DNA from: Bacillota bacterium
GTDB lineage: Bacteria > Bacillota > Clostridia > DSM-8532
NCBI GenBank assembly: GCA_022702935.2
Contig: JAKIML020000021.1
Span: forward strand, 1 to 32,778
Direction of reading: 5' to 3'
Length of the DNA: 32,778 nt
Shown piece after piece: positions 2,766-21,820 of the stretch (position 1 is its first letter; each line of letters starts with the position of its first letter). The position numbers were made by a program, and so were the translations under genes. The notes under the pieces were generated by a model. It searched no databases, was not told the origin of the DNA, and was given only the letters and a program-made list of their open reading frames with translations.

Positions 2766-5372
2766 ATGTCGGTAGAGAAAAACCTTTATGAATTAATTCA
2801 AAAATGTGATATCTGCCTAAATGGAGAAGTGATTTCAAGAGAACTCCTACTAAAAACGTATGCTCAATTTATTTCTGAAACAATTTGCTCCGACAAGCAT
2901 GAAGTTGGGGTTTCTTTACATACCGGTTCCATTTGCTTTGATTTGATTACTATTGCTTATGCAGCTTTAAGCTGTTTGCTGTATGATCAAACGCCTCCGG
3001 AGGATATTGTCAATTCATTAAAAGAAGGCGATTTAATTATATACAATGGACGTACAAGAGCTGTTTTCATGGGTATGGATGAGAATGGCTATGCACGTAT
3101 AAGGCAAGAAGTTGTAAGCTATGGACAAAAAACCTCTCTTATAAGTACAATTGCTCCCCGTAATTTCTATAAAATCAAACCTTACCAAGGAAATTCAACT
3201 AGGTTAGACGGTAGGGGTATTCGAGAAAATCCTAATGCAAGAATTGATTTTATCGAAAGCGTGTTTCAAAGAGATAGGACGAACATATCAGGTTTAATCC
3301 ATAAATCAGTAGTTATTGTAGCCAGTAGAGAAACCACAGATATGATAGTTAGAGGTACGGTAATTCATTATGATGTTGACAAGAGTATTAAATTAACGGA
3401 ACTTGTTAGCGCATCATACTTTACTGAAAATGATGAATATACATACTTAGGAAATCCGGGAAAAACAGAAGCCGTTCTTAAATTTACGAATCGGGTATCA
3501 TTGGCCCGAGAGTATATTATTGATGATGAAAATCAAGAAATCATTGGTCTTATTGTTTTAGGAAAGCAAAATGTAGATATCGGCAAATTTGAGCTTACAG
3601 GACTTATGGGTAGACAAAGTTTAAAGTATATCCTTATTTCTTATGCGCTAGACTGTGACGACAACAAAGGATTTCTTGAAACATATCCGGATATTAAATT
3701 GTTTTCATGTACCAAGGATTTATTATTATCCTATTCGGTTCCTGCTGTTTGCCGTACCGGTTTTGTGGATGAATTAAACACGCAAATCGATAATATTATA
3801 GATAAAAAAATTGAAATTGTTGAGATTTATAGCGAAATTGATTGGAATACATATATCAGAACAAAAAAAGATATCTATTTTATAAAAAATTATGAGTATT
3901 CCGATAACGATACGGAATATTTTGTTATTCATAGTTTTTCTTTGCTTAATCTACTTTCTACGGCTGTGTTTTCCGTGACTTCCATTGAAAAAGCTATTAC
4001 GGAAGGAACAGTCGGATGTCTTTCCCCCCTAGAACAATTGGACAAACTTGAGGAAATAGCAAAATCTTTTTCGGGTATATTGGGAGAGAAAATGAAGTCG
4101 GTAACAACCGTCTTACAAATAATGCATTCCAATATACTTTACAAAAACTTAAAGTATGAGTTTATCAAAAACAGACTTACTAATAAAGCTATAGGCGAGT
4201 ATATTGCATTTGTTGTTCCCAAAGCGTTTTATAAAACTTTACTTTCTGCTCAACTAGAGAGTGACGGGTTTAGCGGGTTACAGATTGACATAGTAAATGC
4301 TGGCAGATTGGATACCCCAAAGCAATATAATGAGATAATAGTTGTTGGTGCATTTAAAGCAAAGGGGTTTGACATGTTTTCTACACCCTCTTCATCCCAT
4401 ATAGTTTGTTTGTTGTATCCATATGAGTTCGTTCTACATAACATTGAAAGTCGTCGACATAAAGAAATAGAACAACTATATAATGAGCATTCATATATAA
4501 AGCTAGATTTAGATGCAATTCAATCGGAAGAAAAAACAGAACCATTTATTGAAGAGCAAAACATGGAAAAGATTGATATTGATCTTAGTAAATATATAGA
4601 GGACATTACAATAAAGTCAACTATAAATTATATAAGCAATGTTGGAGGAAGTTCCGGTACCACATTAATGGCAGATATTATTCGAGTTGCAATATTTCAT
4701 GACGGCGAGAAGGTATTTTTTTCAAAATACTATACGCCATACGTTTTAGATCAAGAACAATGTATAGTGAACGAAACAAATGTAAAATCCCTACAGTCTG
4801 GCGATACTCTGATTTTCACGAGATATACGGAACAAACCAAAGATATTGTTGATGAAATAATCCTTAAAATTCTTGCATCCCCAAATACGGGACAAGATAT
4901 AAAAGAAGCTTACAGAAAGTCTAGATATTGGAAAAACGCACTAAAAAAGCACATGTTAGATAATGGATTATCGTTTAAGGATATTTCTAAGCAAATGTGC
5001 TCCTATGGTAAAGCCAAGCATGAAGTGACACTACGTTCTTGGATAAATGATGAAAGCCATATTGTCGGACCGCGTGACGTGGATTCTTTTTATCAAATTG
5101 CTTTAATTTGCAATGATGAGGAAATGCTTGCCGATCCGGATAGTTTCTGGGAAGCATGTGACATTATACGTTCCTTGAGAATAAAAGTATTAAGACTTAT
5201 AGGTAAAAGCATAATTCGCAGTTTCCAAGGGGTACAAAATGAATCTGATGAGTTGCTTTCAATTGTTAAAGAAAAAGTAGAGGAATTATCTCATGTTATA
5301 CAAATTGAGGCTATTGCAGATGTCACTGGTGTTAAAGTACCGGTATATTTAGCCAATCGGCCAATTCAGTAA
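2766..5372 (+). CDS. drmE: DISARM class 2 protein DrmE (probable)
   Basis: An 868-aa protein in the position and size range of drmE, the gene of unknown biochemical function that marks class 2 DISARM and precedes drmA. The start at 2766 has a TAGGAGAG site 8-9 bases upstream. Visible features are a small beta-rich segment near residues 85-105 (LKEGDLIIYNGRTRAVF), a Rossmann-like stretch near 180 (SVVIVASRE) and another near 525 (EIIVVGAFKAKGF followed by CLLYPYEF). This resembles a degenerate helicase-like core without a Walker A motif. A helical C-terminus contains TLRSWINDE near residue 757. There is no signal or membrane segment. It is followed 16 bp later by drmA, so the two are surely co-transcribed. 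The call relies mainly on order and on the general look of the family, hence moderate confidence. Confidence 0.72.
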   Translation: MSVEKNLYELIQKCDICLNGEVISRELLLKTYAQFISETICSDKHEVGVSLHTGSICFDLITIAYAALSCLLYDQTPPEDIVNSLKEGDLIIYNGRTRAVFMGMDENGYARIRQEVVSYGQKTSLISTIAPRNFYKIKPYQGNSTRLDGRGIRENPNARIDFIESVFQRDRTNISGLIHKSVVIVASRETTDMIVRGTVIHYDVDKSIKLTELVSASYFTENDEYTYLGNPGKTEAVLKFTNRVSLAREYIIDDENQEIIGLIVLGKQNVDIGKFELTGLMGRQSLKYILISYALDCDDNKGFLETYPDIKLFSCTKDLLLSYSVPAVCRTGFVDELNTQIDNIIDKKIEIVEIYSEIDWNTYIRTKKDIYFIKNYEYSDNDTEYFVIHSFSLLNLLSTAVFSVTSIEKAITEGTVGCLSPLEQLDKLEEIAKSFSGILGEKMKSVTTVLQIMHSNILYKNLKYEFIKNRLTNKAIGEYIAFVVPKAFYKTLLSAQLESDGFSGLQIDIVNAGRLDTPKQYNEIIVVGAFKAKGFDMFSTPSSSHIVCLLYPYEFVLHNIESRRHKEIEQLYNEHSYIKLDLDAIQSEEKTEPFIEEQNMEKIDIDLSKYIEDITIKSTINYISNVGGSSGTTLMADIIRVAIFHDGEKVFFSKYYTPYVLDQEQCIVNETNVKSLQSGDTLIFTRYTEQTKDIVDEIILKILASPNTGQDIKEAYRKSRYWKNALKKHMLDNGLSFKDISKQMCSYGKAKHEVTLRSWINDESHIVGPRDVDSFYQIALICNDEEMLADPDSFWEACDIIRSLRIKVLRLIGKSIIRSFQGVQNESDELLSIVKEKVEELSHVIQIEAIADVTGVKVPVYLANRPIQ

Positions 5373-5388: not shown

Positions 5389-8300
5389 ATGAATGATTTT
5401 GATTTGCGTAAGCAGGCATATGCGGCACGGAATGTTTTAATTGATGAGATAAAAAAAGAGCTACTTGGACCCGGGTCGGAATACTCTATTCCGGATGCAG
5501 ATCACGAAATTATTACCGACTTGCCGGAAGTAAGGTATTCCGTCGGTATTTTATTTCCTCAAAAAGAAAGATATGAGGCAGATAATAATGATCCCATACG
5601 TCCTAGCGAGAATATGGTTGATATTGAAGAAAATGTACTTGATGAAAATGAAGAACCGGAAGTGCCGGAGATACCTTCATGGTATAAAAGCGCCATTGGT
5701 GATGCCGAAGAAGATTCCCTCGATGAAGAAATCAATTTAGCTTCACAACGTTTACCCTCATCAATGGGATTTACCTTCTTTGTTAAGGGTGAATGCACTC
5801 AAATTCATTTTGAGTTAAGCTTCGGTACATACCGTAAAACTAGACTCGAAGATTGTATGGTTCCTTTCAAACCGGAATATGATGATTATGAAATTCCTAC
5901 ACCCTTTTCGCAATATGTTGAATTCGATAAGGATAGAGCCCTTTTACGGCTTAAAGCGCCTTTAAAAAAACAGGATGTATTTAAAGCTTATGAGTCGAAT
6001 AATTTTGGAGATTATGTATTGAAAGAGCGATTAATCAGCCTATGCAATCAATTAGGTCGTAGCGGATACATACGTGTTCCTCATAAAACCAAGGTAATCG
6101 TTAATTTTTCCGACTCGGATTATGTGGATAATATTGATAAAATAGACGGAACTACTGCTAAGATTACCGCTTTAAGACGCAAAATGGGAGATGGGGTTTA
6201 CGCCATTACCATAATGATGGTAAACGAAGCCGTTGGTAGCTATAACGGATTGAATTCAATTTTTCAGCCGGTTATTAGAGTGTCTTCCGAGGCGAACAGC
6301 CCGTTCTTGTTTTGTGCGTATGATTCTTTAAAAGAGAATTTTACCGGTGACGAAGAAGAGTTGTCTCTCGCATTGCTTTATAGAAATAGACATATATATG
6401 GCACCGGTCACGGAACATCTGTAAATTGGTCTGTTGACGCCGAAGGGCATGGATATATTGAAAACGACTTTTTCCCAGTAAATGAGGTTCCTCAAATTGA
6501 TTTCGATATCCCAAAATCTTTCGATGTAAATGCCCGCTGTTTATCCATGAAGTATTTATCGGATTTAGATTCCAGTCCCGTTTGCGAAAAAATCAGATCT
6601 ATGCAAACACTGATAGATGCATACTCATCATGGATAGATGATTTAGTGGCTATGAGTCGAGATACAACAAAGGTAGCAGTCATATTTCAACCGAAAGCAC
6701 TGGAACACATTGCTAAGTGTCGTGAATCATGTAATCGAATGTATAAGGGTTTGGAATTGCTGAAAGACCCAAAAAACAAACTTGTATGGGATGCATTTAC
6801 TTTGGCAAATAGGGCCATGTTCATGCAGCGAATCCATTTGAAAATACAAGAAACCGATAAATATCCCAATGACAGGGAGCTTCAAAATGAAGTGCAGTCT
6901 TTGGATTATTATAATGCCGATGATAAATACACATGGCGTCCATTTCAGCTTGCCTTTTTACTTATGAGTATTCGATCCATCGTCGACCAAACCTGTAATG
7001 AACGTGATATTGTGGATTTAATATGGTTCCCTACCGGCGGTGGCAAAACAGAAGCATATTTAGGTCTTACAGCATTTACGATTTTTTTCAGAAGACTTGC
7101 ATATCCGAAGTTGTCGGGTGGTACTGCGGTAATTATGAGATATACGTTGCGCCTATTGGCGGCACAGCAATTTATTAGAGCCGCAACGTTAATCTGTGCA
7201 TGTGAAACAATAAGAAAGGACTGTAAAAAACACAAGAAATATCCTATTTATCCTCTTGGAGAGGAATCTATATCTATCGGGTTATGGATCGGAGGGGATC
7301 ATACACCTAATAAAAACGATCAAGCAAAAAAATTCCTGGCAAAGTTAACTGATCCTTCCGTCAAAGATATACGATACGCTAAAGACAGATATAATAAATT
7401 TCAAGTCTTAAAATGCCCATGGTGTGGAACAAAACTGGTTAAGGACAACGATCCCCAGAGTGGAAAAACAGTTGGACAATGGGGTTATTTCCTAAAGAAT
7501 AACAAAAATTTTTATATAGCTTGTACTCAAGAAGGGTGTAAATTTGAAGCAAAACTACCAATTCAAATTGTAGATGAAGAGTTGTATGAAAATCCTCCTA
7601 CATTATTATTTGGAACGGTCGATAAATTTGCTATGCTTCCATGGAAGCAAGAAGTCGGTTCTTTTTTTGCAACAGACAGCCACAATAGGACGCCCGAATT
7701 AATTATACAAGACGAATTGCACCTTATTTCGGGGCCATTAGGAACTTTGGTCGGATTATATGAAACTGCTATTGATGCGCTATGCTCGGCAAAAGGTGTT
7801 AAGCCTAAAATAGTTGCCTCCACGGCAACAATACGTAGGGCAAAGGAGCAATGTTCCGTCCTTTATAATAGAGAAGTCCATCAATTTCCCTCCCCTGGTA
7901 TTAATGCGGAAGATTCATTCTTTGCGCGTGAAGCAGAAATATCTACTGAGAATAACCGGTATGGTCGCATATATGTCGGGCTAATGCCTTCAGGGAAAAC
8001 TAAAGCTATGATGGAGGTTAGAACCATTGCGGCAATATTACAGAGAGTGGATATGATGCAACTTCCTGATGAGGTTAAAGATAAGTTTTGGACACTGGCG
8101 ATATATTTTAATAGTTTAAGAGATTTAGGGAAATGTTCAACATTAATTGACGATGACGTTAAAGACTTTATAAAAAGGACTGCATATCGCTTTGGTATTG
8201 GAAGAGGTCGTGTTATAGGGGGTGCGGCCGAATTAACAAGCCGCGTATCAACCTCCCAATTAAATGAGACCTTGGAAAAATTAGAAAGATTTCAATATTC

Positions 8301-9036
8301 TAAGAAGAATATTGAAAATAAAAAATATGCCGTCAATACCTTACTTGCTACCAATATGATTTCCGTCGGCGTAGATGTTGCAAGGCTTAACGTAATGCTC
8401 TTAGTCGGTCAACCGAAATTAACCAGTGAATATATTCAAGCATCGAGTCGTATAGGACGTTCATATCCCGGTGTGGCGTTTACCTTATACGACGGATCAA
8501 AAAGTCGAGATCGCTCACATTATGAACAGTTCAAAGCGTACCATGAATCATTTTATAAATATGTTGAGCCCACCGGTGCAACTCCATTTTCAAAACCTGC
8601 AAGGGATAGAGCGTTGCATGCGGTAATCGTTACTTTTTTGAGGCATATTTACGGACTATCGCAAGACAGTGATGCGGCAATGTTTGACAAAGACTCCGAT
8701 CAACTAGGTTTGGAACAAATTAAAGAGTTTATTGTAAAGAGAATTCGTGATATAAAAAGACGATCTACTTCTAAAATAGCAGACGAATCGGAAATTACTT
8801 TAAAAGAAATTAACGAATTCTTCGAAACCTGGCAACAAAGAGTAGAGATTGCGGGCAGGAAAAGCTTTTTCTATGGTGACAGATATATGATTAAACCTCC
8901 GGCCGGAGATGCAAAAAGACTTATGAAGGTATATGGTAGCAGTGGTCTAGATCCTGCTATTGAAACAATGACCTCTATGCGTAATGTAGATAAAAATGTA
9001 GCGGCAAATATGCTGATATGGGAGGACGATTTATGA
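5389..9036 (+). CDS. drmA: DISARM helicase DrmA
   Basis: A 1215-aa superfamily 2 helicase. After about 500 residues without obvious motifs come Walker A (FPTGGGKTEA, about residue 547), a four-cysteine zinc site (CPWCG near 676 and CTQEGCKF near 710), a DEAD-like box in the form IIQDELHLISG (about 772), motif III-like VASTATIRR (about 806), and the C-terminal helicase lobe with MISVGVDVARLNVMLL and QASSRIGRS (about 990-1025), including the arginine-finger motif. In DISARM, DrmA with DrmB forms the DNA-loading and translocating core that senses incoming unmodified phage DNA. The start at 5389 follows a GGGGGA site. The gene ends in an ATGA overlap with drmB. All ATPase motifs are present, so it should be functional. 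Confidence 0.88.
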   Translation: MNDFDLRKQAYAARNVLIDEIKKELLGPGSEYSIPDADHEIITDLPEVRYSVGILFPQKERYEADNNDPIRPSENMVDIEENVLDENEEPEVPEIPSWYKSAIGDAEEDSLDEEINLASQRLPSSMGFTFFVKGECTQIHFELSFGTYRKTRLEDCMVPFKPEYDDYEIPTPFSQYVEFDKDRALLRLKAPLKKQDVFKAYESNNFGDYVLKERLISLCNQLGRSGYIRVPHKTKVIVNFSDSDYVDNIDKIDGTTAKITALRRKMGDGVYAITIMMVNEAVGSYNGLNSIFQPVIRVSSEANSPFLFCAYDSLKENFTGDEEELSLALLYRNRHIYGTGHGTSVNWSVDAEGHGYIENDFFPVNEVPQIDFDIPKSFDVNARCLSMKYLSDLDSSPVCEKIRSMQTLIDAYSSWIDDLVAMSRDTTKVAVIFQPKALEHIAKCRESCNRMYKGLELLKDPKNKLVWDAFTLANRAMFMQRIHLKIQETDKYPNDRELQNEVQSLDYYNADDKYTWRPFQLAFLLMSIRSIVDQTCNERDIVDLIWFPTGGGKTEAYLGLTAFTIFFRRLAYPKLSGGTAVIMRYTLRLLAAQQFIRAATLICACETIRKDCKKHKKYPIYPLGEESISIGLWIGGDHTPNKNDQAKKFLAKLTDPSVKDIRYAKDRYNKFQVLKCPWCGTKLVKDNDPQSGKTVGQWGYFLKNNKNFYIACTQEGCKFEAKLPIQIVDEELYENPPTLLFGTVDKFAMLPWKQEVGSFFATDSHNRTPELIIQDELHLISGPLGTLVGLYETAIDALCSAKGVKPKIVASTATIRRAKEQCSVLYNREVHQFPSPGINAEDSFFAREAEISTENNRYGRIYVGLMPSGKTKAMMEVRTIAAILQRVDMMQLPDEVKDKFWTLAIYFNSLRDLGKCSTLIDDDVKDFIKRTAYRFGIGRGRVIGGAAELTSRVSTSQLNETLEKLERFQYSKKNIENKKYAVNTLLATNMISVGVDVARLNVMLLVGQPKLTSEYIQASSRIGRSYPGVAFTLYDGSKSRDRSHYEQFKAYHESFYKYVEPTGATPFSKPARDRALHAVIVTFLRHIYGLSQDSDAAMFDKDSDQLGLEQIKEFIVKRIRDIKRRSTSKIADESEITLKEINEFFETWQQRVEIAGRKSFFYGDRYMIKPPAGDAKRLMKVYGSSGLDPAIETMTSMRNVDKNVAANMLIWEDDL

Positions 9037-10976
9037 GTGAGTTAAAACCTCAGAAAGAAAAAATTCCGCTTAATAATATCACACACACGGTGCGAACCGC
9101 CCAATCCGTTTTACAATATGGAGTGGGAGCAATGGTGGATTTCCCAGATCAAACGTTAATGACTGCGGCACCGGAGTATTGGAACGACAAAATTACTAAA
9201 ATACATGACGAACGGCTTGAAAAAGTTTTAGGTGTAGACTATTTTGGCATGCCTGGGGGTAAAGACGAAACAGCCTTTCAAGAAGGGATTTCTTACGTAC
9301 GGTTTCCTCAGTGGTATTTTTGTCCGAAATGTCGTAGATTTCAGCCAATCAAAAAATGGTATACCGAATACAAGCTCAAAGCTTCTTCAAAGCAGAAAGA
9401 AAAGGACCCGTATATGAGTCGATTAAGCTGCCTGGAATGCAGGCAAGAACTTGTTGCCGCCCGTGTTGTAGTTGCCTGTAAAAAAGGACATATCGATGAT
9501 TTCCCTTGGGTTAAATGGGTTCATAAACGCAATACAAATGTTAACGCAAAATCGAACTGCGACAATCCGGACCTAACATTTGAAACAGGCGCTACGGCAA
9601 CCGCAGGCCTCGAGGGGCTTGTGATTAGATGTAAAAACTGCAATGCCAGAGCAACGCTATATGAAGCATTTGATCCTAATATTTTTATCCGATTAGACGG
9701 AAAACAAACTGAAGACAATACGGGTAATAGCACAAATGAGTTTGTTTGCACAGGTAATGAACCTTGGAAGCACAACTCCGTATTATGTAACGAATATCCT
9801 CGTGCAATGCAAAGAGGTGCTTCGTCGATTTATTTTCCTAAAACCGTTAGCTCGCTTGTTATTCCACCCTACTCTGACAGAATTAATAAAGAGATAGAAG
9901 AATCACAAGCATACCATGAATGCTTAGTAAAAATAGCGGATTACGACGAGGATGAACGAGAAAAGAAGATAAAAAAGCGAATTGACGGCTGGGCACATGA
10001 TATTGCTATGCAAAAGTCACTTAACGAGACTGACGTAAAAAGGATATTAGAACGTAAGTTGCTTTTCCAACAGCATGAAGAGAATAGCGGATATAAAACT
10101 ACCGGGGTTAAATATCGAGCAGAAGAGTTCGAAGCTCTGACGGGAGCAATTCTCGGCATTGATTCGAAATCCGGGGATTTCTTACGCGAGGAAATTAATG
10201 CCGAAAGATATAATATTCCGGGCATTAAACGAGTTTCATTGATACATAAAATTCGGGAAGTTAGGGCCATGACAGGATTCACCAGGATTGATCCGCCAGG
10301 CTCATCCGATTTGGGGCAGGGAGTGTATGGATTTGTACCCGTTAAAGAACCTGAAACCCGTTGGTATCCTGCTTATGAGGTGCGTGGCGAAGGAATCTTC
10401 TTAGAATTTGACGAAAAAGCCATTGCAAGCTGGATTGAAAGATGCCCTGAAGTTGTCCGAAGGGCTCAAGAGCTTAATGGAAACTATGAACTCACAGTGC
10501 AAAGCGGGTCTTCGCCTAAAAATATTACACCGAAATTTCTGCTTTTGCATACCGTATCCCATTTATTAATCCGACAAATGAGTTTTGAATGCGGTTATTC
10601 CGTCGCATCACTTAGAGAAAGGATTTACTGTAGCTCTCATGAAGAAGGCAAAGAGATGGCAGGAATCTTTGTTTATACGGCAAACGGAGACTCCGAAGGC
10701 ACTCTCGGTGGACTTGTCAGGCAGGGATATCCGGATTGTTTACCACATGTGTTTAAGAAGGCTATTGAAAGTAGTTTAGTGTGTTCCAACGATCCTGTTT
10801 GCATTTCTACCGAGGACGGACAGGGGCGTGATGCATTGAACTTAGCCGCCTGCCATGCCTGTACACTACTTCCTGAAACTAGTTGTGAAGAGTTTAATGT
10901 ATTCCTAGACAGAGGTGTAGTTGTCGGAACTTATAAAAACAAAAACATAGGCTTTTATGGCGATTGGGTGAGATAG
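9033..10976 (+). CDS. drmB: DISARM protein DrmB (DUF1998 domain)
   Basis: The start at 9033 is preferred over an in-frame ATG at 9018, because a GGGAGGACG site sits 7 bases before 9033 and gives a 4-bp overlap with drmA. The 647-aa product has cysteine pairs typical of zinc ribbons (CPKC near residue 95, CLEC near 132, CKNC near 203). Its C-terminal DUF1998 region has LLHTVSHLLIRQ, SLRERIYCSS, CSNDPVC and ACHACTLLPETSCEEFN, the pattern shared by DrmB proteins. DrmB binds DrmA and contributes to DNA loading in characterised DISARM. There is no membrane segment and no frameshift. Order drmE-drmA-drmB with tight spacing supports one transcript. Confidence 0.88.
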   Translation: MSELKPQKEKIPLNNITHTVRTAQSVLQYGVGAMVDFPDQTLMTAAPEYWNDKITKIHDERLEKVLGVDYFGMPGGKDETAFQEGISYVRFPQWYFCPKCRRFQPIKKWYTEYKLKASSKQKEKDPYMSRLSCLECRQELVAARVVVACKKGHIDDFPWVKWVHKRNTNVNAKSNCDNPDLTFETGATATAGLEGLVIRCKNCNARATLYEAFDPNIFIRLDGKQTEDNTGNSTNEFVCTGNEPWKHNSVLCNEYPRAMQRGASSIYFPKTVSSLVIPPYSDRINKEIEESQAYHECLVKIADYDEDEREKKIKKRIDGWAHDIAMQKSLNETDVKRILERKLLFQQHEENSGYKTTGVKYRAEEFEALTGAILGIDSKSGDFLREEINAERYNIPGIKRVSLIHKIREVRAMTGFTRIDPPGSSDLGQGVYGFVPVKEPETRWYPAYEVRGEGIFLEFDEKAIASWIERCPEVVRRAQELNGNYELTVQSGSSPKNITPKFLLLHTVSHLLIRQMSFECGYSVASLRERIYCSSHEEGKEMAGIFVYTANGDSEGTLGGLVRQGYPDCLPHVFKKAIESSLVCSNDPVCISTEDGQGRDALNLAACHACTLLPETSCEEFNVFLDRGVVVGTYKNKNIGFYGDWVR

Positions 10977-11136
10977 CTCTGACCAGGGACAATTAACGAC
11001 ATAAAAATATCCACAACATCCAAAGCATATGATATAATTATTGATAATTTTGCTGTTAATATGTTTGGCATTAAGAATATGGTAGAGTTGAACGGAGACT
11101 TATTTCTATATTTGGTTAAACACGGAGGTGATAAAA
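10977..11136 (+). other. Gap where drmC is normally found; possible gene remnant
   Basis: In class 2 DISARM a phospholipase-D-like drmC usually lies between drmB and the methyltransferase. Here there are only 160 bp. The stretch is AT-rich, and one frame on the + strand stays open for about 55 codons (from about 10,991 to the TGA at 11157-11159, running into the methyltransferase gene). It reads as protein-like sequence (AYDIIIDNFAVNMFG, then LFLYLVKHGGDK) with no good start. It could be the tail of a deleted gene or chance. I cannot match it to drmC. Confidence 0.4.
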
Positions 11137-12594
11137 ATGCCGGCTTACAATGCTGTTGATATATTTTGCGGTTGCGGAGGGATGACAGAGGGACTTAAAC
11201 AGGCCGGCTTTCAGGTTATCGCCGGAATTGAGATAGACGAGCATGCCGGTAAAACATATAGGATGAACCATGAAAAAGACGGCACAATTCTATTCCAACA
11301 AGATATTCAGCTTTTCAATACAAACATTATAAAGGACATTTTAAACGGACAACCGCTTCATCTATTAGCAGGATGCCCCCCCTGTCAAGGCTTTTCGTCG
11401 ATAAGAAGAAAAAATAAAAAACGTTCCGTAAAGGATCCTCGTAATAAGCTTATAAATGAGTATTATCGTTTTGTAAAAGAGCTTATGCCGATCACAATTA
11501 TGCTTGAAAATGTACCGGCATTAGCAAACTACACTTACTTTAAAAAAGTAGTCGGTCAAATTAAAAAGCTTGGGTATTTAATTGAGTACAGGGAAGTCAA
11601 TATTGCCGATTACGGCGTTCCCCAGAGGAGAAAACGACTTGTTATGGTGGGGTCACTATTAGGCTCTATAAGAGTTGCGCCTGAGACAAAAACAAAAGTT
11701 ACGGTGAGAGATATTATTGGGAATTTAGAAAGTGTTAATATTACGAATGACCCCGTACACAAAATTTTTCCGGTACATACGGAAGCCGTACGAACACGAA
11801 TTGAACTAACGCCTCGCGATGGCGGAAGTCGGAGTGATTTACCTGATGAATATACTCTTGAATGTCATAAAAAAGAGGGCGTCGGTTTCAAAGATGTATA
11901 TGGACGGCTTAGATGGGATGATGTTTCATCAACAATAACCGGAGGTTGCCTTAATCCTTCAAAGGGAAGGTTTTTACATCCTGAAGAGAACAGATGTATT
12001 TCAGCAAGAGAAGCTGCTATGTTGCAAACTTTCCCTAAAAACTATATATTTCCGGTTGATATTTCAAGATCTGCAATTGCGCTAATGATAGGTAATGCGT
12101 TACCTCCGGAGTTTTGCAGACAGCAAGCACAAAATATTAGCAAACATTTGGATGTGTTCTTTATGTCGGATATATATGATAATGATAAACGCTCTGAAAT
12201 AATGAGCCATGTAAAAAATAAGGGTACGGAACCTGAATTGTATATTAGAAAGCTTTTATGTGAGTTGGGATATAGCCACTATAGGTTAAAAACCTCAAAG
12301 TTAAGTTTCTCTCCGACCATTGTATTTCCGGCTCTCAAGAAAGCAATTTTTGTAAACGGCTGTTTTTGGCATGGGCATAATTGCTCAAGAGGAGTGCTGC
12401 CTCAAAGCAATGTGGATTTTTGGCGCGATAAAATCAATAAAAACATTGAACGAGATAAAGCAAACTTTGAAGAGTTACTAAACTTAAACTGGAATTTTTT
12501 GGTTATTTGGCAATGTGAGATTAAGGTGAGAAACCGCTGCCAATTAGAACATAAGTTGAAAAATTTTATGGGCCGCAGTTCAAAAAAGGAGTAA
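11137..12594 (+). CDS. drmMII: DISARM cytosine-5 methyltransferase fused to a Vsr-like domain
   Basis: A 485-aa fusion. The start at 11137 is chosen because GGAGGTG lies 7 bases upstream; an in-frame GTG at 11128 falls inside that site. Residues 1-340 are a complete C5-cytosine methyltransferase: motif I DIFCGCGGMTEG, motif IV GCPPCQGFSS (catalytic Cys83), ENVPA, QRRKRL, a short target-recognition region with TPRDGGSRSDLP, and C-terminal GNALPPEF. In DISARM this enzyme marks host DNA as self. At residue 343 a full Vsr-like domain begins at its own Met (MSDIYDNDKRSEIMSHV). It keeps the Glu of PEL, the zinc-site CFWHGHNC with a later WQC, and the catalytic-region His412. However, the catalytic Asp of E. 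coli Vsr (D51) is Thr394 here, and H64 is Asn407. The nuclease activity is therefore doubtful, while the fold seems preserved. Confidence 0.87.
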   Translation: MPAYNAVDIFCGCGGMTEGLKQAGFQVIAGIEIDEHAGKTYRMNHEKDGTILFQQDIQLFNTNIIKDILNGQPLHLLAGCPPCQGFSSIRRKNKKRSVKDPRNKLINEYYRFVKELMPITIMLENVPALANYTYFKKVVGQIKKLGYLIEYREVNIADYGVPQRRKRLVMVGSLLGSIRVAPETKTKVTVRDIIGNLESVNITNDPVHKIFPVHTEAVRTRIELTPRDGGSRSDLPDEYTLECHKKEGVGFKDVYGRLRWDDVSSTITGGCLNPSKGRFLHPEENRCISAREAAMLQTFPKNYIFPVDISRSAIALMIGNALPPEFCRQQAQNISKHLDVFFMSDIYDNDKRSEIMSHVKNKGTEPELYIRKLLCELGYSHYRLKTSKLSFSPTIVFPALKKAIFVNGCFWHGHNCSRGVLPQSNVDFWRDKINKNIERDKANFEELLNLNWNFLVIWQCEIKVRNRCQLEHKLKNFMGRSSKKE

Positions 12595-13576: not shown

Positions 13577-14313
13577 CAAGCACTGAATTTTGTCTCCCAA
13601 ATTCACTTGTTAGGGGCATAACCCCTAATACCCCAAACAAAACACGTATTAATATTAAAGTTGTCGTTTACGGGAAACCATCAGTCAGTCTCTTATCCCC
13701 AAAAAATGAAGGCGGACGATACCACATGAAAGATGTATATTCAGGAAGCAGCCACATGCCGGGAAGGAAGAACGGTAATGGTTGCCACAGCTATATGAGA
13801 TTTGACAGACCGCCTTGACACTCCATTGAAAAGCAATGAAAAACATATAAAAATTTAAAAAAATTTTCTTAGGGGGGCAACTTTTGCCCAAAAAATCTGC
13901 TGATTAATAGAGGGATATAACTACCCCCTCAAATGCACTTTGAAAACAAAATAGTTGTTTTATCCGGCACGTTCCCCACATGGACTGAGAAGGAAAGCCG
14001 GATTGCAGGTACGCCAAGACCACCTGTCCTCTATTACACCGGATTGAAACTGAAGGATCCAATCATACATGGTATTGATGGAGGAAAGGTACGAGCGGTA
14101 AATGCCAATGCAATTAATAAATGCGGGTAGCACTTATGGCGATGACCCATGTGGAAGGATAATGATACTTGCGCATAGTCGAGGTTAGGTCCCAGAGTGC
14201 GCCCCGGTCGCCGACGGGGAGGTGGAATTCCTATGAGGACGGTCAACCGCTGTCCGCCGGATAAACCCATAATTATTTATATTTATAAAAATGTTATGAA
14301 AGGAGACGGTGGT
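13577..14313 (+). other. Decayed mobilization-type region with GC-rich hairpins
   Basis: About 740 bp without a confident gene. The first 250 bp contain a frame (CLPNSLVRGITPNTP and onward) that resembles sequence commonly seen next to mobilization genes, but it lacks a start and product identity. An AT-rich stretch follows around 13,840-13,880. From about 13,960 several short frames stay open in turn: one reads GTFPTWTEKESRIAG and stops at 14,130, another at 14,102-14,188 reads STYGDDPCGRIMILAHSRG. This suggests a frameshifted remnant. From 14,185 to 14,265 the sequence turns GC-rich with hairpins, for example CCCC/GGGG arms at 14202-14205 and 14216-14219, and CGGT/ACCG near 14,240. It may be a structured leader or DNA site before the excisionase gene. 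I cannot identify it. Confidence 0.45.
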
Positions 14314-14547
14314 ATGGCCACTAAACAACAAACTGCAAAAGCTATTGAGCATCTGCCCATGTTGAAAACTGTGGAGCAGATGAGCCGCATATCAGGCATA
14401 GGTGAAAACAAGCTGCGGGAACTGATGGACAAAGGCGAAATTGAGTATGTTCAGAATGGCAACCGCCGATTATTAGCAGATTCTGCAATATGGGACTGGT
14501 ATGAAAGGAATAAAGTTGCGGTTAATATGCAGTGGGAGAGGAGATAA
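14314..14547 (+). CDS. xis: Excisionase-like DNA-binding protein (Xis)
   Basis: A 77-aa protein. The start at 14314 follows AAAGGAGACGG; a longer frame reaching back to 14197 has no ribosome site. It contains a MerR/excisionase-type helix-turn-helix: TVEQMSRISGIGENKLRELM, then a beta-turn region YVQNGNRRLL. The IGENKLR segment is characteristic of the Tn916-type Xis group. Such proteins bend DNA at att sites and direct the integrase toward excision. It ends 8 bp before the integrase start, the usual xis-int pair. It appears intact. Confidence 0.85.
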   Translation: MATKQQTAKAIEHLPMLKTVEQMSRISGIGENKLRELMDKGEIEYVQNGNRRLLADSAIWDWYERNKVAVNMQWERR

Positions 14548-14555
14548 AAAGAATT

Positions 14556-15836
14556 ATGGCGGTAACTCCAAGGCAAGTTAAAAATAAACGCAATGCTGAT
14601 GGTACTTTAACCGGCAGGCCTGGTACGGTATATGACGTAAACATCAAGTATAAAACGCCTGACGGCTATAAGTCTTATGCCAAAAAAGGCTTTGCGACTA
14701 AAAAGGAAGCATTGCAGCATGAAGCTGAAATGAGAGCAAAGCTAATAAATCCATCCTTTATTGCCACAGTAACAGCGCAGGCCAAGCAAACTGTACGAGA
14801 TTATTTGCTGGAATGGGTAGAAAACCATGGTGCTCTGAACCTCAGACCATCTACTTTTGCAGGCTATAAAAGCAATATAAATAATCATATTATACCCTGC
14901 ATAGGACATGTACAACTGCGTCAGGTGACACCTGCCATGTTGGATAATATGTTTCAGAAGCTTTTTGAGAAAGGATTATCCCAAAGCTCTGTTAGATACT
15001 GCCAGCGTATTATGAGTGTTGCGCTTGAAGCCGCCCGAAAATACAATTATATAGAGAATAATCCCGCTCATGATGTTATTACCAAGTTTGGAAAGCAAGG
15101 AAAAACACCGGAACCATATACTATACAGCAGATGCAGCAGTTAATGGGCAGTATTCTAGGAACTGAATGGGAAATGATAATTATGCTGGGAGGTATGTAT
15201 GGCCTGCGCATTAGCGAAATATTAGGACTTCGATGGGACAATGTAGACATGGAAAAGGGAACTTTCAAAGTAGTTGAGCAGTTGCCTTTCAAATTACCGG
15301 CCGGTGCACTCACTCTGCCGGAAGAGTTGCCTCCGGTCAAATCCCATGACAGGGTCTTGCCAATAACTGAAGTAGCAAGGCCATATTTTGAACGCCAGCT
15401 TGATTTGCAAGCGCGCCAAAAGGAATTATGCCACCTGTCCAGAACTGTATACTATGATAACCGGCTGGTTATAGCAAAACCAAACGGCGTCCCCTTGAGA
15501 AGAGAGACTGTATCATCTGATTTCGGTCAGTTGCTCAGGCGCTTTGAATTGCCGCATATCCGTTTTCATGATCTTCGACACACTGCAGCAACAAACATGC
15601 ATCAGCTTACAGGTGATTTTTACACTGTGGGGCAAATTCTGGGGCATAGCCTGAAGGGTGTAGGTATGCAGTTGGGGATATCTTCAAATCTTGACAGCAT
15701 TACGGCACAATATGTAGATGTAAGACTAGACAGAAAAAGAGCCGTGTTGGATACTTACCATAATACACTACATCCGTGTGAAAAGAATAAAGTAAAAAAG
15801 AAGGCTCAGAAAAAAAGTCATGATAGAGAGCGGTAA
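14556..15836 (+). CDS. int: Tyrosine-family integrase
   Basis: A 426-aa site-specific recombinase. The ATG at 14556 has GAGAGGAG upstream and follows xis by 8 bp; an in-frame GTG at 14532 overlapping xis is less likely. The domain order is an N-terminal arm-binding beta domain (GTVYDVNIKYKTPDGYKSYAKKG, residues about 20-60), a core-binding helical domain (about 75-185), and the catalytic domain. The catalytic residues are all visible: Arg in GLRISEILGLRW (about 217), HDLRH (about 338-342), the second-His motif LGHS (about 366-369) and the tyrosine in TAQYVDV (about 386). The gene points toward and ends near a tRNA-Ser 3' end, its likely target. A short basic tail (KKKAQKKSHDRER) closes the protein. 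Confidence 0.93.
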   Translation: MAVTPRQVKNKRNADGTLTGRPGTVYDVNIKYKTPDGYKSYAKKGFATKKEALQHEAEMRAKLINPSFIATVTAQAKQTVRDYLLEWVENHGALNLRPSTFAGYKSNINNHIIPCIGHVQLRQVTPAMLDNMFQKLFEKGLSQSSVRYCQRIMSVALEAARKYNYIENNPAHDVITKFGKQGKTPEPYTIQQMQQLMGSILGTEWEMIIMLGGMYGLRISEILGLRWDNVDMEKGTFKVVEQLPFKLPAGALTLPEELPPVKSHDRVLPITEVARPYFERQLDLQARQKELCHLSRTVYYDNRLVIAKPNGVPLRRETVSSDFGQLLRRFELPHIRFHDLRHTAATNMHQLTGDFYTVGQILGHSLKGVGMQLGISSNLDSITAQYVDVRLDRKRAVLDTYHNTLHPCEKNKVKKKAQKKSHDRER

Positions 15837-15960
15837 TGATATATTTTCCTTCAATTTCATATTAGTCTTTATTAATATTTATTAGTTTATGGCACCAATT
15901 TGTCACCATTTTACAGAAAATGGGATAAGTTATGGAATATATTTACTATTCACAAAAATT

Positions 15961-15996
15961 AAAACCCCTCGCAAACTCAGTGTCTGCAAGGGGTTT
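15961..15996 (-). terminator. Terminator of the tRNA-Ser gene
   Basis: Read on the minus strand, a 15-bp stem (with G-U wobbles) begins with AAACCCCTTGCAGAC and closes with GTTTGCGAGGGGTTT, around a 5-base loop, then a T run. It starts directly at the encoded CCA end of the tRNA. Confidence 0.8.
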
Positions 15997-16087
15997 GGCG
16001 GAGAGAGAGGGATTCGAACCCTCGGTACGCTCATCACGTACACACGATTTCCAGTCGTGCGCCTTAGACCAGCTCAGCCATCTCTCC
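15996..16087 (-). tRNA. tRNA-Ser(GGA)
   Basis: Minus strand, with acceptor arms GGAGAGA and TCTCTCC, discriminator G and an encoded CCA (complement of 15996-15998). The anticodon stem-loop CACGA-CTGGAAA-TCGTG gives anticodon GGA. A long variable arm (about GTACG...CGTAC) and a T-loop GGTTCGAATCC are present, as expected for a class II serine tRNA. The gene is complete. Its 3' end faces the integrase, so it is the probable attachment site; the element would have restored the tRNA 3' end on integration. Confidence 0.95.
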
Positions 16088-16143
16088 ATGGTCCATATAC
16101 ATCATTTATATGGTGTTTGCGCCCTTAATCAGCACGCTTGAAT

Positions 16144-16173
16144 ATTGTAACACAGCCCTTGGACAACAGTCAA
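16144..16173 (-). promoter_or_regulatory. Promoter of tRNA-Ser
   Basis: On the minus strand TTGACT (16168-16173) and TACAAT (16144-16149) are 18 bp apart, with the -10 box about 57 bp before the mature tRNA 5' end. Confidence 0.6.
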
Positions 16174-16222
16174 GCAATTTCAGTGAGGATTTGCTGTTCC
16201 ATAAAACACCATGGGGAGAGGG

Positions 16223-17134
16223 CTAAATCTCCCCTTGCTTCTCCAGATAGAGCTTCTCCAGCTCGGCCTCATTTAAGAAGCCTTGAGCAGCGCCCTTTTC
16301 GCCAATCTTCCAAGATGCAAAGACAATGGCATGCTTGATGGCTAGATAGGGATCGGCGGTTTTGGCATAGTAGTGCAGGAAGCATGAAAAGAGGCTGTCC
16401 CCGGCACCAATGGTATTGACAATGGGGCGGGTTTTGACGGCCTTGAATCGTCCCATAAAGCCGTCCTTTTTGACATAGAGCAAAGCTCCTTCACTGCCAA
16501 GACCAATGACCAGGATATCATTGTCATACTCACTGATAACCTTTCGGGCAAAGCCTTCATAGTCCCCATCCATGCCCTCATGACTCATGAAGAGGATATT
16601 GGCATAGCGCATATAGTCAGAATTGTAGGCATCGTGGATATCCTTGAGCACATGAACGTCGGTGGCCACTAATTTGCCTAATTCTCTGGCCTTCTTTAAA
16701 AGCGGTCTTGAGAAGTTGATATTGCACAAGGCGGCAATATCGCAGGCCTTTAAGGCCTCTATAGCGATATCCTGGGGATAAACCGCCTCCTGGATATCCT
16801 TTAAATCAGTATATATCTGCCGTTTTCCCTGAGGATCGTAGAGGATGACCGATTGGGGTGTCTCCTTAATCAGAGGGAGCACATGGCGGGTATCCACACC
16901 ACTTTCTTCAAGCGCCTTTTTTACCGATTCATACTGCATATCCTGCCCGGTCAGGCTCAGCAAATCCACCTGATCTCCCAATGTAGTCAGGGCCTTGGCC
17001 AGATTAATACCGACCCCCGAGACTGTTGAGGCCACGCCAAAAAAGGGGTAGTTCACAGGATTATAGGCAATGGGAAAGCCATCAATACGTAAGGTTGTTT
17101 CAATATTCGTAAGCCCTGCCACTAAGATCTTCAT
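16223..17134 (-). CDS. PfkB-family carbohydrate kinase
   Basis: A 303-aa ribokinase/PfkB-fold sugar kinase, which transfers phosphate from ATP to a sugar or nucleoside hydroxyl in the cytoplasm. The start at 17134 has AGGAGG 6 bases upstream. The N-terminus KILVAGLTNIETTLRIDGFP and the glycine-rich GVASTVSGVGINLAKAL segment (33-50) fit the substrate domain. The C-terminal signature TIGAGDSLFSCFL (241-253) gives the catalytic Asp246 and anion hole. The length is usual. No neighbouring transporter identifies the substrate. A LacI-type palindrome and promoter elements upstream suggest carbon-source control. The gene is transcribed alone, toward the tRNA. Confidence 0.88.
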   Translation of the reverse strand: MKILVAGLTNIETTLRIDGFPIAYNPVNYPFFGVASTVSGVGINLAKALTTLGDQVDLLSLTGQDMQYESVKKALEESGVDTRHVLPLIKETPQSVILYDPQGKRQIYTDLKDIQEAVYPQDIAIEALKACDIAALCNINFSRPLLKKARELGKLVATDVHVLKDIHDAYNSDYMRYANILFMSHEGMDGDYEGFARKVISEYDNDILVIGLGSEGALLYVKKDGFMGRFKAVKTRPIVNTIGAGDSLFSCFLHYYAKTADPYLAIKHAIVFASWKIGEKGAAQGFLNEAELEKLYLEKQGEI

Positions 17135-17152
17135 GGTCACCCTCCTAAGAGA

Positions 17153-17181
17153 TGTATAGTGGTAGCATAGCATAAGAACAA
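17153..17181 (-). promoter_or_regulatory. Promoter candidate of the PfkB-family kinase gene
   Basis: On the minus strand TTGTTC (17176-17181) and TATACA (17153-17158) are 17 bp apart. The leader would be only about 12 bases, so an alternative -10 (TATGCT, about ten bases upstream) with a weak -35 overlapping the palindrome is also possible. Confidence 0.45.
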
Positions 17182-17187
17182 TAAAAA

Positions 17188-17199
17188 GAAAACGTTTTC
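17188..17199. promoter_or_regulatory. LacI/CcpA-type operator palindrome
   Basis: GAAAACGTTTTC is a perfect 12-bp palindrome with the central CG typical of LacI-family (including CcpA cre) operators. It lies immediately upstream of the kinase promoter and would fit repression or catabolite control of the kinase gene. No regulator gene is in the window. Confidence 0.6.
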
Positions 17200-17275
17200 C
17201 TTAAATGTGGACAGGCCTATTCCTGGTAATGGTTTCATCCCTTACGATTACGCCCTTTACCAGGAGCAGAAAAGC

Positions 17276-17671
17276 TTAATCCAGATCACCCTCGGTGTCG
17301 TAGGGCCAGTCAATGATTCCGCCCAGATTAAGCACCCTGTTATAGCCCATCTCCATCAGGGTCTTTGCAGCAGTGGTGCTCCTTTTGCCGCTTCTGCAAT
17401 AGACAATGATGGTTGTGTTCTTGTCGGGCACTACATCGGCGATTTTCTCTTTAATCTCGTCAACGGGAATGAGGATGCTACCCGGGATACGCATGGATTT
17501 ATGCTCATCCGGGGTTCTTACATCGATCAACACGGCATTGCTGTTTCCCTTAATCAGCTCCAACGCGTCCTTGGGGGATATATTGGTCACAGAATTTATC
17601 GAGGCTGAGCAGGAGGAAAAGGAGAAAAGGGACAGCCCCAGTAAACTGATGAGCAAGGTTTTCAATCTCAT
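17276..17671 (-). CDS. Rhodanese-domain lipoprotein
   Basis: A 131-aa surface lipoprotein. The N-terminus MRLKTLLISLLGLSLFSFSSC is a lipoprotein signal with Cys21 as the likely lipidated residue. The rest is a single rhodanese domain: AVLIDVRTPDEH, the active-site loop CRSGKRS with Cys92, and a C-terminal GGIIDWP. Rhodaneses move sulfur between thiosulfate, persulfides and acceptors; small exported ones have mostly unknown partners. A purine-rich ribosome site (AAGGAAGG) lies upstream. It is separate from the kinase gene by about 140 bp and shares no clear operon. The catalytic cysteine is present, so it is probably active. Confidence 0.88.
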   Translation of the reverse strand: MRLKTLLISLLGLSLFSFSSCSASINSVTNISPKDALELIKGNSNAVLIDVRTPDEHKSMRIPGSILIPVDEIKEKIADVVPDKNTTIIVYCRSGKRSTTAAKTLMEMGYNRVLNLGGIIDWPYDTEGDLD

Positions 17672-18076
17672 AATACTATCGCCTTCCTTTCTTGCCTATG
17701 AACTGTCTTGCTCCGTTTATCAAGGAGCTTATCATTTATGAGTCACATTAAGAAGTGACAAAGTTACATTTTAGCATTCATGTTTTTGCGAAAACCTATA
17801 CTTCCTTCACATTTGAGCGTGAAGAAGTTAACCGAAATAAATAGCAATAGCAACCAAAAATGGATAATGCGATAGGAAATTGTGAAAAAAGTCCCCAACC
17901 ACAGGCTATAGGCGGGTTTGAGCCGTAATTGAGAGTATAAAACTTCGATTTTATGGCAATTGCTAAAAGTGGCTTGATATGCGGGTTTTGGCGTTCGACA
18001 ATGAGGCCGATCCGCCCGGGCACACATTCTCTCTTGAAAAATTTAAAAAAATTTATAAAAATGATGGCTTTTTATG
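17672..18076. other. Intergenic block, no confident gene
   Basis: About 400 bp between divergent genes. It contains a small hairpin (GTCAC/GTGAC near 17,743-17,760). A block at about 17,796-18,027 has two overlapping open frames on the minus strand (75 and 87 codons) with unlikely compositions and no ribosome site. The block's even composition and double openness suggest a structured or repeated non-coding element more than a gene. The HU promoter follows. Confidence 0.5.
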
Positions 18077-18104
18077 TTGTTTTATGAAATAATATGGGTA
18101 TAAA
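18077..18104 (+). promoter_or_regulatory. Promoter of the HU gene
   Basis: TTGTTT (18077-18082) and TATAAA (18099-18104) are separated by 16 bp, 45 bp before the HU start codon. Confidence 0.5.
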
Positions 18105-18149
18105 ACTACTTGGCAGTAAGTGCCATAAATATCCGAAAGGAGAGTTGAC

Positions 18150-18443
18150 ATGAATAAGGCGAATCTTATTGATGCAATTGCAAAGAAAGCCGAAATGACA
18201 AAGAAGGATGCAGGTATTGCTCTGGACGCTATCATCGAAAGCGTAAGCGCTTCTCTGGCAAAGGGTGAAAAGGTAACTCTCGTTGGTTTTGGAACCTTTG
18301 ACGTAAGAGAACGCAAGGCTCGTACCGGTGTTAATCCCCGGACCAAGGAAAAGATCAAGATTCCTGCTTCCAAGGCACCTGTATTCAAGGCCGGTAAGGA
18401 ATTGAAGGAAAAGGTTGCAGCAGCTAAGGGTAAGAAGAAGTAA
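18150..18443 (+). CDS. hup: DNA-binding protein HU
   Basis: A 97-aa histone-like protein that binds and bends DNA as a dimer to shape the nucleoid. It begins MNKANLIDAIAKKAEMTKKDA, carries the family signature GFGTFDVRERKARTGVNPRT (about 49-68), which forms the DNA-clasping arm, and ends in a Lys-rich tail (KVAAAKGKKK) slightly longer than the usual 90 residues. The ribosome site GAAAGGAGAG precedes the ATG. Codon use is typical of highly expressed genes. It is followed by a strong terminator, so it is monocistronic. HU-type proteins also often assist site-specific recombination, but nothing here links it to the nearby integrase. Confidence 0.96.
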   Translation: MNKANLIDAIAKKAEMTKKDAGIALDAIIESVSASLAKGEKVTLVGFGTFDVRERKARTGVNPRTKEKIKIPASKAPVFKAGKELKEKVAAAKGKKK

Positions 18444-18460
18444 TTTAGCATAATAATTGT

Positions 18461-18488
18461 AAAGCAGCCCGCAGGGGCTGCTTTTTTA
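18461..18488 (+). terminator. Terminator of the HU gene
   Basis: Arms AGCAGCCC (18463-18470) and GGGCTGCT (18475-18482) are followed by a run of six T residues. Confidence 0.92.
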
Positions 18489-18644
18489 TGTAAAAATAAC
18501 ATTTTACTTTATAGATATATGCATTTTGATGCCATGTCCCATGCTTTTGGTGTAAAATTGATAAAGGATTGCATAGCCTTTATTGACCAGGCACTGTACC
18601 CTGTTAAGTGTAAATTTCTTTTGAAAGGACAGAATGAGGAGATC

Positions 18645-19376
18645 ATGAACGGCGCACCGATTATTTCGATAAAGAATGTTACCAAACGGTACAAAAAGCG
18701 CAATGCCCTTGACAATATATCCATAGATATATACAAGGGTGAGATTTTTGGCCTGCTGGGTCCCAACGGCGCGGGCAAGTCCACCTGCATTTCATTGCTG
18801 GCCACCATCAATCGGCCCGAAGCCGGCGAAATCTTCGTTGATGGGCAAAACCTTCTGAAAAAGCCCGAGGCCATGAGGGCAAGAATGGGCTATGTGCCCC
18901 AGGATATTGCATTATATCCCATGCTCTCTGCCTTTGATAACCTGAATTTCTGGGGCGGCATCTACGGGATTGATGCCAAGCTCCGTCATGAGCGGATTGA
19001 TGAGGTTCTTAGGCTGCTCAAGCTCTATGATAGGAAGAATGACAGAGTGGGGACCTTTTCGGGAGGGATGAAGCGGCGTTTGAACATCGCAGCAGCCCTT
19101 CTCCATAAGCCGGACATCCTCATCATGGATGAACCCACCGCCGGTGTGGATGTGCTATCAAGGGCTACCATTGCCGACTTGATTCGTCAGTTAAAGCAAC
19201 AGGGCTGCACCATGATCATCACAAGCCATTATATTGATGAACTGGAGCTCCTCTGTGATCGTGTCGCTATTCTTAAGGAAGGCAGCCTTCTTCATACCGG
19301 AACCATTGATGAGGTTCTTGCAAAAACTGCCGCGCCCAATCTGGAGCAATTAATGCTGAGGCTGGAGGATGCATAG
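18645..19376 (+). CDS. ABC-2 type exporter, ATP-binding protein
   Basis: A 243-aa ATPase that powers the two following permeases. The start at 18645 is chosen for its GAGGAG site; an upstream frame from 18519 adds 42 residues that do not belong to the family and has no ribosome site. It has Walker A GPNGAGKST (about 40-48), the Q-loop in GYVPQD, signature FSGGMKRR, Walker B ILIMDEPTAGVD and the H-loop ITSHY. This is the DrrA/CcmA-like class used for drug, lipid or antibiotic export. The stop overlaps the leader of the next gene. Substrate cannot be read from sequence. Confidence 0.92.
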   Translation: MNGAPIISIKNVTKRYKKRNALDNISIDIYKGEIFGLLGPNGAGKSTCISLLATINRPEAGEIFVDGQNLLKKPEAMRARMGYVPQDIALYPMLSAFDNLNFWGGIYGIDAKLRHERIDEVLRLLKLYDRKNDRVGTFSGGMKRRLNIAAALLHKPDILIMDEPTAGVDVLSRATIADLIRQLKQQGCTMIITSHYIDELELLCDRVAILKEGSLLHTGTIDEVLAKTAAPNLEQLMLRLEDA

Positions 19377-19377
19377 G

Positions 19378-21782: not shown

Positions 21783-21791
21783 GCATAACAA

Positions 21792-21820
21792 AAGGGAGGT
21801 GGAACCACCTCCCTTAATTT
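21792..21820. terminator. Bidirectional terminator between convergent genes
   Basis: A perfect stem with arms AAGGGAGGTGG (21792-21802) and CCACCTCCCTT (21805-21815) and a tight loop, with T-rich sequence to the right and A-rich sequence to the left, between the stops of the exporter operon and the zinc-ribbon gene. Confidence 0.85.

Follow-up and report, generated by a model that had tools for sequence, protein, structure and literature searches.

A Vsr-family domain with an altered catalytic position fused to the C5 methyltransferase of a DISARM-type operon

Introduction

What does a Vsr-family domain do at the end of a DNA methyltransferase in a DISARM-type operon, if the position of its catalytic aspartate is occupied by another residue? 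Deamination after C5 methylation of cytosine gives rise to T:G mismatches, which Vsr nicks (PMC12907096). In DISARM, methylation marks DNA as self, at CCWGG in the case of Bacillus paralicheniformis (PMC5957327), and the ATPase activity of DrmAB is lowered by 5mC (PMC9142583). A Vsr joined to a DISARM methyltransferase would tie this self-marking to the repair of mutations caused by C5 methylation. Such a pairing is unmentioned in the DISARM literature as far as its text was available, a restriction that applies to all articles cited here. Within the same limits, no published description of a methyltransferase-Vsr fusion in DISARM was found in the open-licence literature (including PMC11090510, PMC10855626, PMC12898733, and PMC4081073).

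The original prediction, made from the letters of a stretch of 32,778 nucleotides that was analysed as a whole (the window), proposed a fusion of both domains in a DISARM operon, with a conserved Vsr fold and a lost active site. The copy in the window is a natural version predicted to be nuclease-dead, which makes the question of cutting versus binding directly testable.

Results and Discussion

A DISARM-type operon on a probable integrative element

The fusion gene stands 3' of the genes for DrmE, DrmA, and DrmB and is transcribed in the same direction (Table 1). Profile searches recovered adjacent DrmA and DrmB, a DNA methyltransferase in the operon, and DrmE. With DrmE and a cytosine methyltransferase, DISARM presumably belongs to class 2; the window resembles this class in the DrmE, DrmA, and DrmB families and in the C5 methyltransferase, all in one direction, but differs in the Vsr part of the methyltransferase, in the lack of a recognised DrmC, and in a DrmA just below the equivalog cut-off of NF038325 (937.3 versus 950 bits). 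The narrower DrmE equivalog NF038323 also stayed below its cut-off (45.9 versus 250). The absence of DrmC refers to the window proteins scanned, with Pfam only for the genes of 14532-29591 and 29721-32765; this phospholipase-D nuclease is non-essential for DISARM (PMC9142583). The open reading frame of DrmB opens at 9018, and GGGAGGACG precedes the ATG at 9033. Among the PADLOC models, those for Type II MTase and DruM matched the fusion protein best, and the best DrmMII model scored 1.1e-45.

Because the G+C content differs between the defence genes (34-42%) and the region 16223-32765 (48%), the cluster is probably carried by an integrative element. At 14197-16087, an open reading frame with a sub-threshold HTH match is followed by the integrase and tRNA-Ser(gga), and directly 5' of DrmE (582-2578) lie AbiEi-like and AbiEii-like genes, which probably form a toxin-antitoxin pair within this island.

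Table 1. Features of the window and fusion genes found elsewhere (positions without a locus prefix are those of the window).
Feature	Position	Strand	Remarks
DrmE-family protein	2766..5372	+	NF038316 622.7 bits versus cut-off 80; PF24957 DrmE_C
DrmA helicase	5389..9036	+	NF038325 (DISARM_DrmAS) 937.3 bits; PADLOC DrmA 1e-214
DrmB	9033..10976	+	NF038324 466.1 bits versus cut-off 240; PADLOC DrmB 5.3e-86
Fusion gene, C5 cytosine methyltransferase and Vsr-like domain	11137..12594	+	485 aa; ORF opens with GTG at 11128
Methyltransferase part	11137..12162	+	PF00145 2.7e-55
Vsr-like domain	12163..12591	+	Own Met is residue 343, no linker; PF03852, TIGR00632
Thr codon ACC at E. coli Vsr Asp51 position	12316..12318	+	Residue 394 of 485
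Asn codon AAC at His64 position	12355..12357	+	Common natural variant
Tyrosine integrase	14532..15836	+	PF00589 2.8e-19; probably of the defence-carrying element
tRNA-Ser(gga)	15996-16087	-	Adjoins integrase
Vsr-methyltransferase fusion, Stenoxybacter acetivorans (Neisseriaceae)	L088:5813-7366		Asp kept
Vsr-methyltransferase fusion, Ruminococcus MAG	L091:5764-7308		Asp kept
Vsr-methyltransferase fusion, faecal scaffold labelled phage MT836809.1	L210:929-2722		Vsr first, Asp kept

One frame, two domains

The frame 11128-12594 (+) contains no internal stop. Since GGAGGTGAT directly precedes the ATG at 11137, this start was preferred and the protein is counted as 485 residues. Residues 5-335 match PF00145 (188.5 bits, cut-off 22). 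Residues 344-418 match PF03852 (4.6e-23; 81.3 bits, above the cut-off of 27), and residues 343-461 match TIGR00632 with 120.9 bits at a curated cut-off of 97.85; the Vsr domain alone scores 124.6 bits with TIGR00632 and 5.4e-24 with PF03852. The proposed fusion of a methyltransferase and a Vsr domain in a DISARM-type operon was thus upheld: both families match within one open frame, with DrmE, DrmA, and DrmB upstream. The methyltransferase part contains FCGCGG, PPCQGFS, ENV, QRRKR, and GNALPP, and we take PPCQ, ENV, QRRKR, and GNALPP to be C5 methyltransferase motifs; its PDB relatives include M.HaeIII and M.HhaI. It shares 58% and 56% identity with the methyltransferases of two other DISARM loci, L078 and L089, and 55% with that of genome G777 (locus L184). 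By eye, the enzymes of L184, L078, and L089 end approximately 2, 7, and 16 residues past the position of the Vsr Met. At E 0.001 no second Vsr was found in the host genome, nor did anything else in it match the fusion protein.

Inspection by eye bore out that the Vsr part begins with its own Met and that no ribosome site is seen before the respective ATG (12163); purine-rich stretches precede the ATGs of DrmE, DrmA, DrmB, and the methyltransferase. Loss of a stop codon that once separated two genes, as had been suggested, is plausible, as an unfused pair in the same order exists in G777 and a pair on a Pandoraea plasmid shares one frame with a stop in between. However, the Vsr of G777 lies in a different frame and in another Vsr clade, and direct descent from a pair of the G777 type was rejected on account of the differing clades.

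A predicted Vsr fold without Asp51

The Vsr domain was modelled from an alignment with 38 viral Vsr rows (mean pLDDT 86.1). The best structural matches of the model were 1cw0 (Foldseek 1.5e-9) and 1vsr, and its superposition on 1cw0, the E. coli Vsr, aligned 137 residues with a Z score of 16.7 and an rmsd of 2.4, other folds scoring lower. The Vsr fold is thus predicted to be kept. The model of the full-length fusion was weak (pLDDT 70.4, poorest at residues 193-320), and contacts between its domains were unreadable.

Aligned with 1cw0, the domain keeps Glu25, Cys66, His69, His71, Cys73, and Cys117, and carries Thr for Asp51, Asn for His64, and Val for Thr63; Asp97 is kept as well. We take Cys66, His71, Cys73, and Cys117 to be the zinc ligands of Vsr and Asp51 to be the ligand of its catalytic magnesium. 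The retained Glu25, His69, and zinc ligands and the exchange of Asp51 agree with what had been read from the sequence by eye. Because Asp51 is replaced, we speak of a Vsr-family domain and not of a Vsr endonuclease. In print, the Vsr active site consists of E25, D51, H64, H69, and D97 (PMC12907096). No article on mutants of Asp51 was found in the open-licence literature.

How unusual these exchanges are was judged from 120 other Vsr domains, which are distinct profile matches (E 1e-6, frames of at least 80 aa) obtained with a profile that included the window's sequence; the window's own copies were dropped, and the viral scan contributed from its best 80 of 334 matches. L036 has no letter in the Asp51 column, so that 119 domains are comparable, and all 119 have Asp. 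Position 64, on the other hand, is occupied by His in 60, Asn in 31, Asp in 28, and Gln in one of the 120 domains, and the functional Neisseria enzyme V.NgoAXIII likewise has a residue other than His (PMC12907096). The exchange of His64 for Asn was therefore rejected as a sign of a dead site: Asn occurs in 31 of 120 domains, and those with a letter at Asp51 keep the Asp. Of the proposed conserved fold with a lost active site, the predicted fold and the loss of Asp51 stand, but His64 does not count as a second loss.

At positions conserved in at least 90% of the domains, the window's Vsr retains 18 of 22, compared with a median of 22 for the others. Missing are an Arg that borders an alignment gap, two residues of the GxPD loop (its Gly and its Asp), and the Gly in LGW. 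Four other, intact Vsr domains also retain 18 of 22, and three of the 120 retain fewer, two of them truncated (L033 and L036) and one with a stop in its frame (L039). Judged by these sequences, the retention of invariant positions appears low but not extreme, and what sets this domain apart is that one of the lost residues is the Asp. Because moderately conserved positions are kept near the median (22 of 26 versus 20 at 60-90% conservation; 25 of 56 versus 25 at 30-60%), the domain seems not to have decayed in general.

The original prediction had considered that many homologues with Asp would make this a single mutation or a sequencing error. The first part holds insofar as Asp occurs in all comparable homologues and the change is known from the window alone. 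An error is unlikely, however, because the Thr codon is at least two base changes away from an Asp codon and the neighbouring residues have changed too. The LPGKPD loop of other Vsrs differs here in four residues and reads KLSFSPT, without an acidic residue; the neighbours Ser, Phe, and Ser are 2, 2, and 3 base changes away from Pro, Gly, and Lys, and the frame is kept, so that the altered loop as a whole requires at least 2, 2, 3, and 2 changes. A compensated frame shift may lie behind it.

Vsr genes in related DISARM loci

A DrmA scan of species genomes (DrmA alignment and two peptide patterns) yielded at least 19 loci. Nine of the 15 loci of the window's DISARM subtype that span at least 15 kb encode a Vsr (L079, L080, L083, L086, L087, L088, L090, L091, and L092; L083 and L087 are counted separately, with operons 95% identical and the same Vsr), and none was found in the other six or in four short loci (3.2-7.3 kb). 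Seven of these Vsrs are separate genes, six of them beside a methyltransferase (split over two frames in L087) and one, in L092, with no methyltransferase recognised. The remaining two, in L088 and L091, are fused to a methyltransferase with the Vsr first. Asp51 is kept in all nine. In a class sample of 391 genomes, a Vsr was present in two of six DrmA loci other than that of the window, with G171 apparently the same locus as L079, and in a phylum sample of 398 genomes in five of 14 DrmA loci read, one of the five being broken; up to 20 kb were read per locus in both samples. G554 had two contigs that matched equally, and one of them was used. The occurrence of Vsr beside DISARM is thus recurrent, and the candidate claim that a Vsr in DISARM is unique to the window was rejected. 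A broken Vsr in two frames, the second with the Asp, lies near a DISARM-like locus (L200:11074-11530, - strand).

Two further arrangements extend this picture. A Microvirga plasmid groups a methyltransferase, a Vsr that keeps the Asp after a three-residue insertion, DrmD, DrmA, and DrmC with a DUF1998 protein that matches DrmB. G777 has the gene order of the window (DrmE-DrmA-DrmB-methyltransferase-Vsr), but its Vsr is a separate gene with the Asp, and the stop of the methyltransferase and the start of the Vsr overlap as TTGA. The possibility that the exchange of Asp for Thr is shared across DISARM Vsrs was not borne out: all 16 DISARM-associated domains looked at keep the Asp, 11 of which (10 distinct) lie within the set of 120. 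For L078 and L089, whose DISARM methyltransferases are the nearest to that of the window, no Vsr turned up in the DNA covered (24 and 15 kb, respectively).

A second fusion in the order methyltransferase-Vsr was not found in 61 genomes of relatives, 32 of the family, and 398 of the phylum, in one viral scan, or in plasmids and phages. Altogether 214 loci were examined. Most of the query was covered by 18 plasmid and five phage records, of which H1, H5, H7, H8, H10, H17, H51, and H53 were inspected individually and the others judged from their listed matches; H67, inspected in addition, encodes a methyltransferase without Vsr. The architecture had been regarded as undescribed, and no paper on it was found in the open-licence literature. 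The order in the window is indeed unmatched in these searches, but fusion as such is not, as L088 and L091 join the same two domains in reverse and with the Asp kept. The concern that this fusion with an intact active site might already be a described standard part of DISARM is half borne out: such proteins exist in these two loci, in the opposite order, but no article on them was found. These proteins resemble that of the window in carrying both domains beside DrmE-DrmA-DrmB and differ in their N-terminal Vsr of another clade, in their methyltransferase of another group, and in the position of their gene upstream of DrmE.

Vsr and C5 methyltransferases outside DISARM

Vsr also accompanies C5 methyltransferases where no DISARM gene is seen. 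Among nine other phylum loci with a methyltransferase like that of the window, three, including the DISARM locus of G777, have a Vsr within approximately 1.5 kb; the short flanks of seven loci from the search for a second fusion contained none. In G022, G042, and G057 the methyltransferase and Vsr matches are approximately 0.4-3.2 kb apart, and in the DNA examined from G022 and G042 no Drm gene was recognised. Adjacent methyltransferase-Vsr pairs also occur on plasmids of Rhizobium, Pandoraea, Thauera, and Aeromonas. The fusion in L210 shares with that of the window the single frame for both domains but differs in its N-terminal Vsr with the Asp and in approximately 100 residues of other sequence that separate the two parts. 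No DISARM gene was seen in the 3.7 kb of L210 read, which were scanned for methyltransferase and Vsr only, and on the basis of this locus the idea that fusion is unique to DISARM was rejected. Because Vsr joins C5 methyltransferases outside DISARM too, its presence beside DISARM is best explained by a partnership with the methyltransferase instead of a particular link to DrmA-DrmB.

A different composite was observed in L022 (1483-2886), from the window's class, and in L075 (13060-14418), a Pandoraea plasmid, where the frame of a Vsr runs on into a long C-terminal part that is alike in both. By eye, this part ends in an HNH-like region, and a C5 methyltransferase adjoins.

Phylogeny of the Vsr domains

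The tree comprised 122 Vsr domains (L036 dropped, L184 and L185 added) and, with few columns, left many forks open. One supported clade of 10 rows unites the Vsrs of the DISARM subtype from the DrmA scan with both reverse-order DISARM fusions; L040 and L042, from genomes without a DrmA match, are also members of this main DISARM Vsr clade. The Vsr of G777 belongs to a second clade, and that of the window to a large group with Vsrs from phage contigs, within which its placement is open. Because these three fall apart in the tree, Vsr was probably recruited to DISARM at least three times and fused at least twice. Entry from different clades and fusion in opposite orders would make the pairing a recurrent solution. 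The end branch of the window's Vsr measures 1.09, compared with a median of 0.33, a length consistent with relaxed constraint or with a new role.

Function of the fused domain

The fusion resembles Dcm/Vsr of E. coli in its combination of a C5 methyltransferase with a zinc-type Vsr, in a domain order equal to the dcm-vsr gene order (PMC12907096), and in the match of its predicted fold to 1cw0. It differs in being one polypeptide, in the Thr at position 51, and in its DISARM-type operon. As our leading reading, with a probability of about 0.4, we propose that the Vsr part is a nuclease-dead DNA-binding appendage of the DISARM methyltransferase, derived from a repair companion. A Vsr, as a frequent companion of C5 methyltransferases, would have been joined end to start onto a DISARM-type methyltransferase, which presumably labels the DNA of the host so that DrmA-DrmB treat it as self. 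The zinc-held fold would have been kept and the metal-binding Asp51 lost. Nicking of T:G mismatches would then be gone, because Asp51 is absent; DNA binding would most likely be retained, because the fold and the zinc site are kept; and the dead Vsr could help the methyltransferase to hold or find its sites, in whichever state of the DNA it might bind. This would have a precedent in inactivated PD-(D/E)xK domains that are kept as binding parts elsewhere, such as the DNA-binding nuclease-type domain of RecC (PMC1185551), although RecC belongs to another family and another complex. The closest published case is that of ARMADA and Druantia, whose defence proteins have active or inactivated Vsr domains built in, but there the Vsr sits on a YprA-type helicase (PMC12458937). 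In a narrower version, which we regard as unlikely, the dead Vsr would read the T:G mismatch derived from 5mC or a half-methylated state and steer or hold the methyltransferase, thereby shielding deaminated self DNA from DrmA-DrmB.

That tethering the two parts is useful can be argued from the opposite-order fusions of L088, L091, and L210; taken alone, however, tethering favours repair over a dead binder, because all three keep the Asp. The long end branch, the 18 of 22 most conserved positions (median 22), and the nearest methyltransferases without Vsr (L078 and L089) also speak against an appendage. The same observations suit the alternative that the domain is a vestigial tail. A Vsr partner would have been fused by chance through stop loss or a frame change, and its nuclease lost because having one on every methyltransferase was of no use or did harm, with the rest not yet decayed or serving as a solubility aid. 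The loss of Asp51 in this sequence alone among comparable Vsrs fits this, as does the fact that Vsr often neighbours C5 methyltransferases anyway. General decay, however, would be expected to look different: moderately conserved positions are at the median level, the four zinc ligands are present, and the frame is open through the end of the domain. As no sister sequence was found from which selection could be gauged, we consider a vestigial tail nearly as likely as the DNA-binding appendage.

Alternatively, the domain might still be an active mismatch nuclease in which another residue or water replaces Asp51, so that the fusion both methylates and repairs its own sites. Glu25, His69, Asp97, and the zinc site would be in line with this, and repair was probably the ancestral task, because the reverse fusions and the unfused DISARM Vsrs keep the Asp. 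However, an Asp present in every comparable domain and listed in the active site (PMC12907096), and a replacement loop without any acidic residue, make activity improbable. Least probable is a role as DISARM effector or guide of DrmA-DrmB, as may apply to the helicase-borne Vsrs of ARMADA and Druantia (PMC12458937, where the available text names no Vsr for DISARM): the lack of a recognised DrmC among the window proteins scanned and the Vsrs near DrmA-like genes in the phylum and class samples would suit it, but the window's Vsr is fused to a methyltransferase instead of a helicase, lacks the catalytic Asp, and belongs to a family that pairs with C5 methyltransferases outside DISARM and has main-clade members in genomes without a DrmA match.

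Other genes in the DISARM loci

Several of the loci contain further genes beside the DISARM methyltransferase or DrmB. In L068 (13821-16772, - strand) and L089 (10597-13506), both without Vsr, a UvrD helicase with a PD-(D/E)xK nuclease adjoins the methyltransferase. A gene for a NERD nuclease and helicase lies 3' of DrmB in L079 (16033-17745) and L081 (15998-17710). In L081, the methyltransferase is adjoined by a gene (18794-21010) whose product matches GHKL-type ATPases at both ends.
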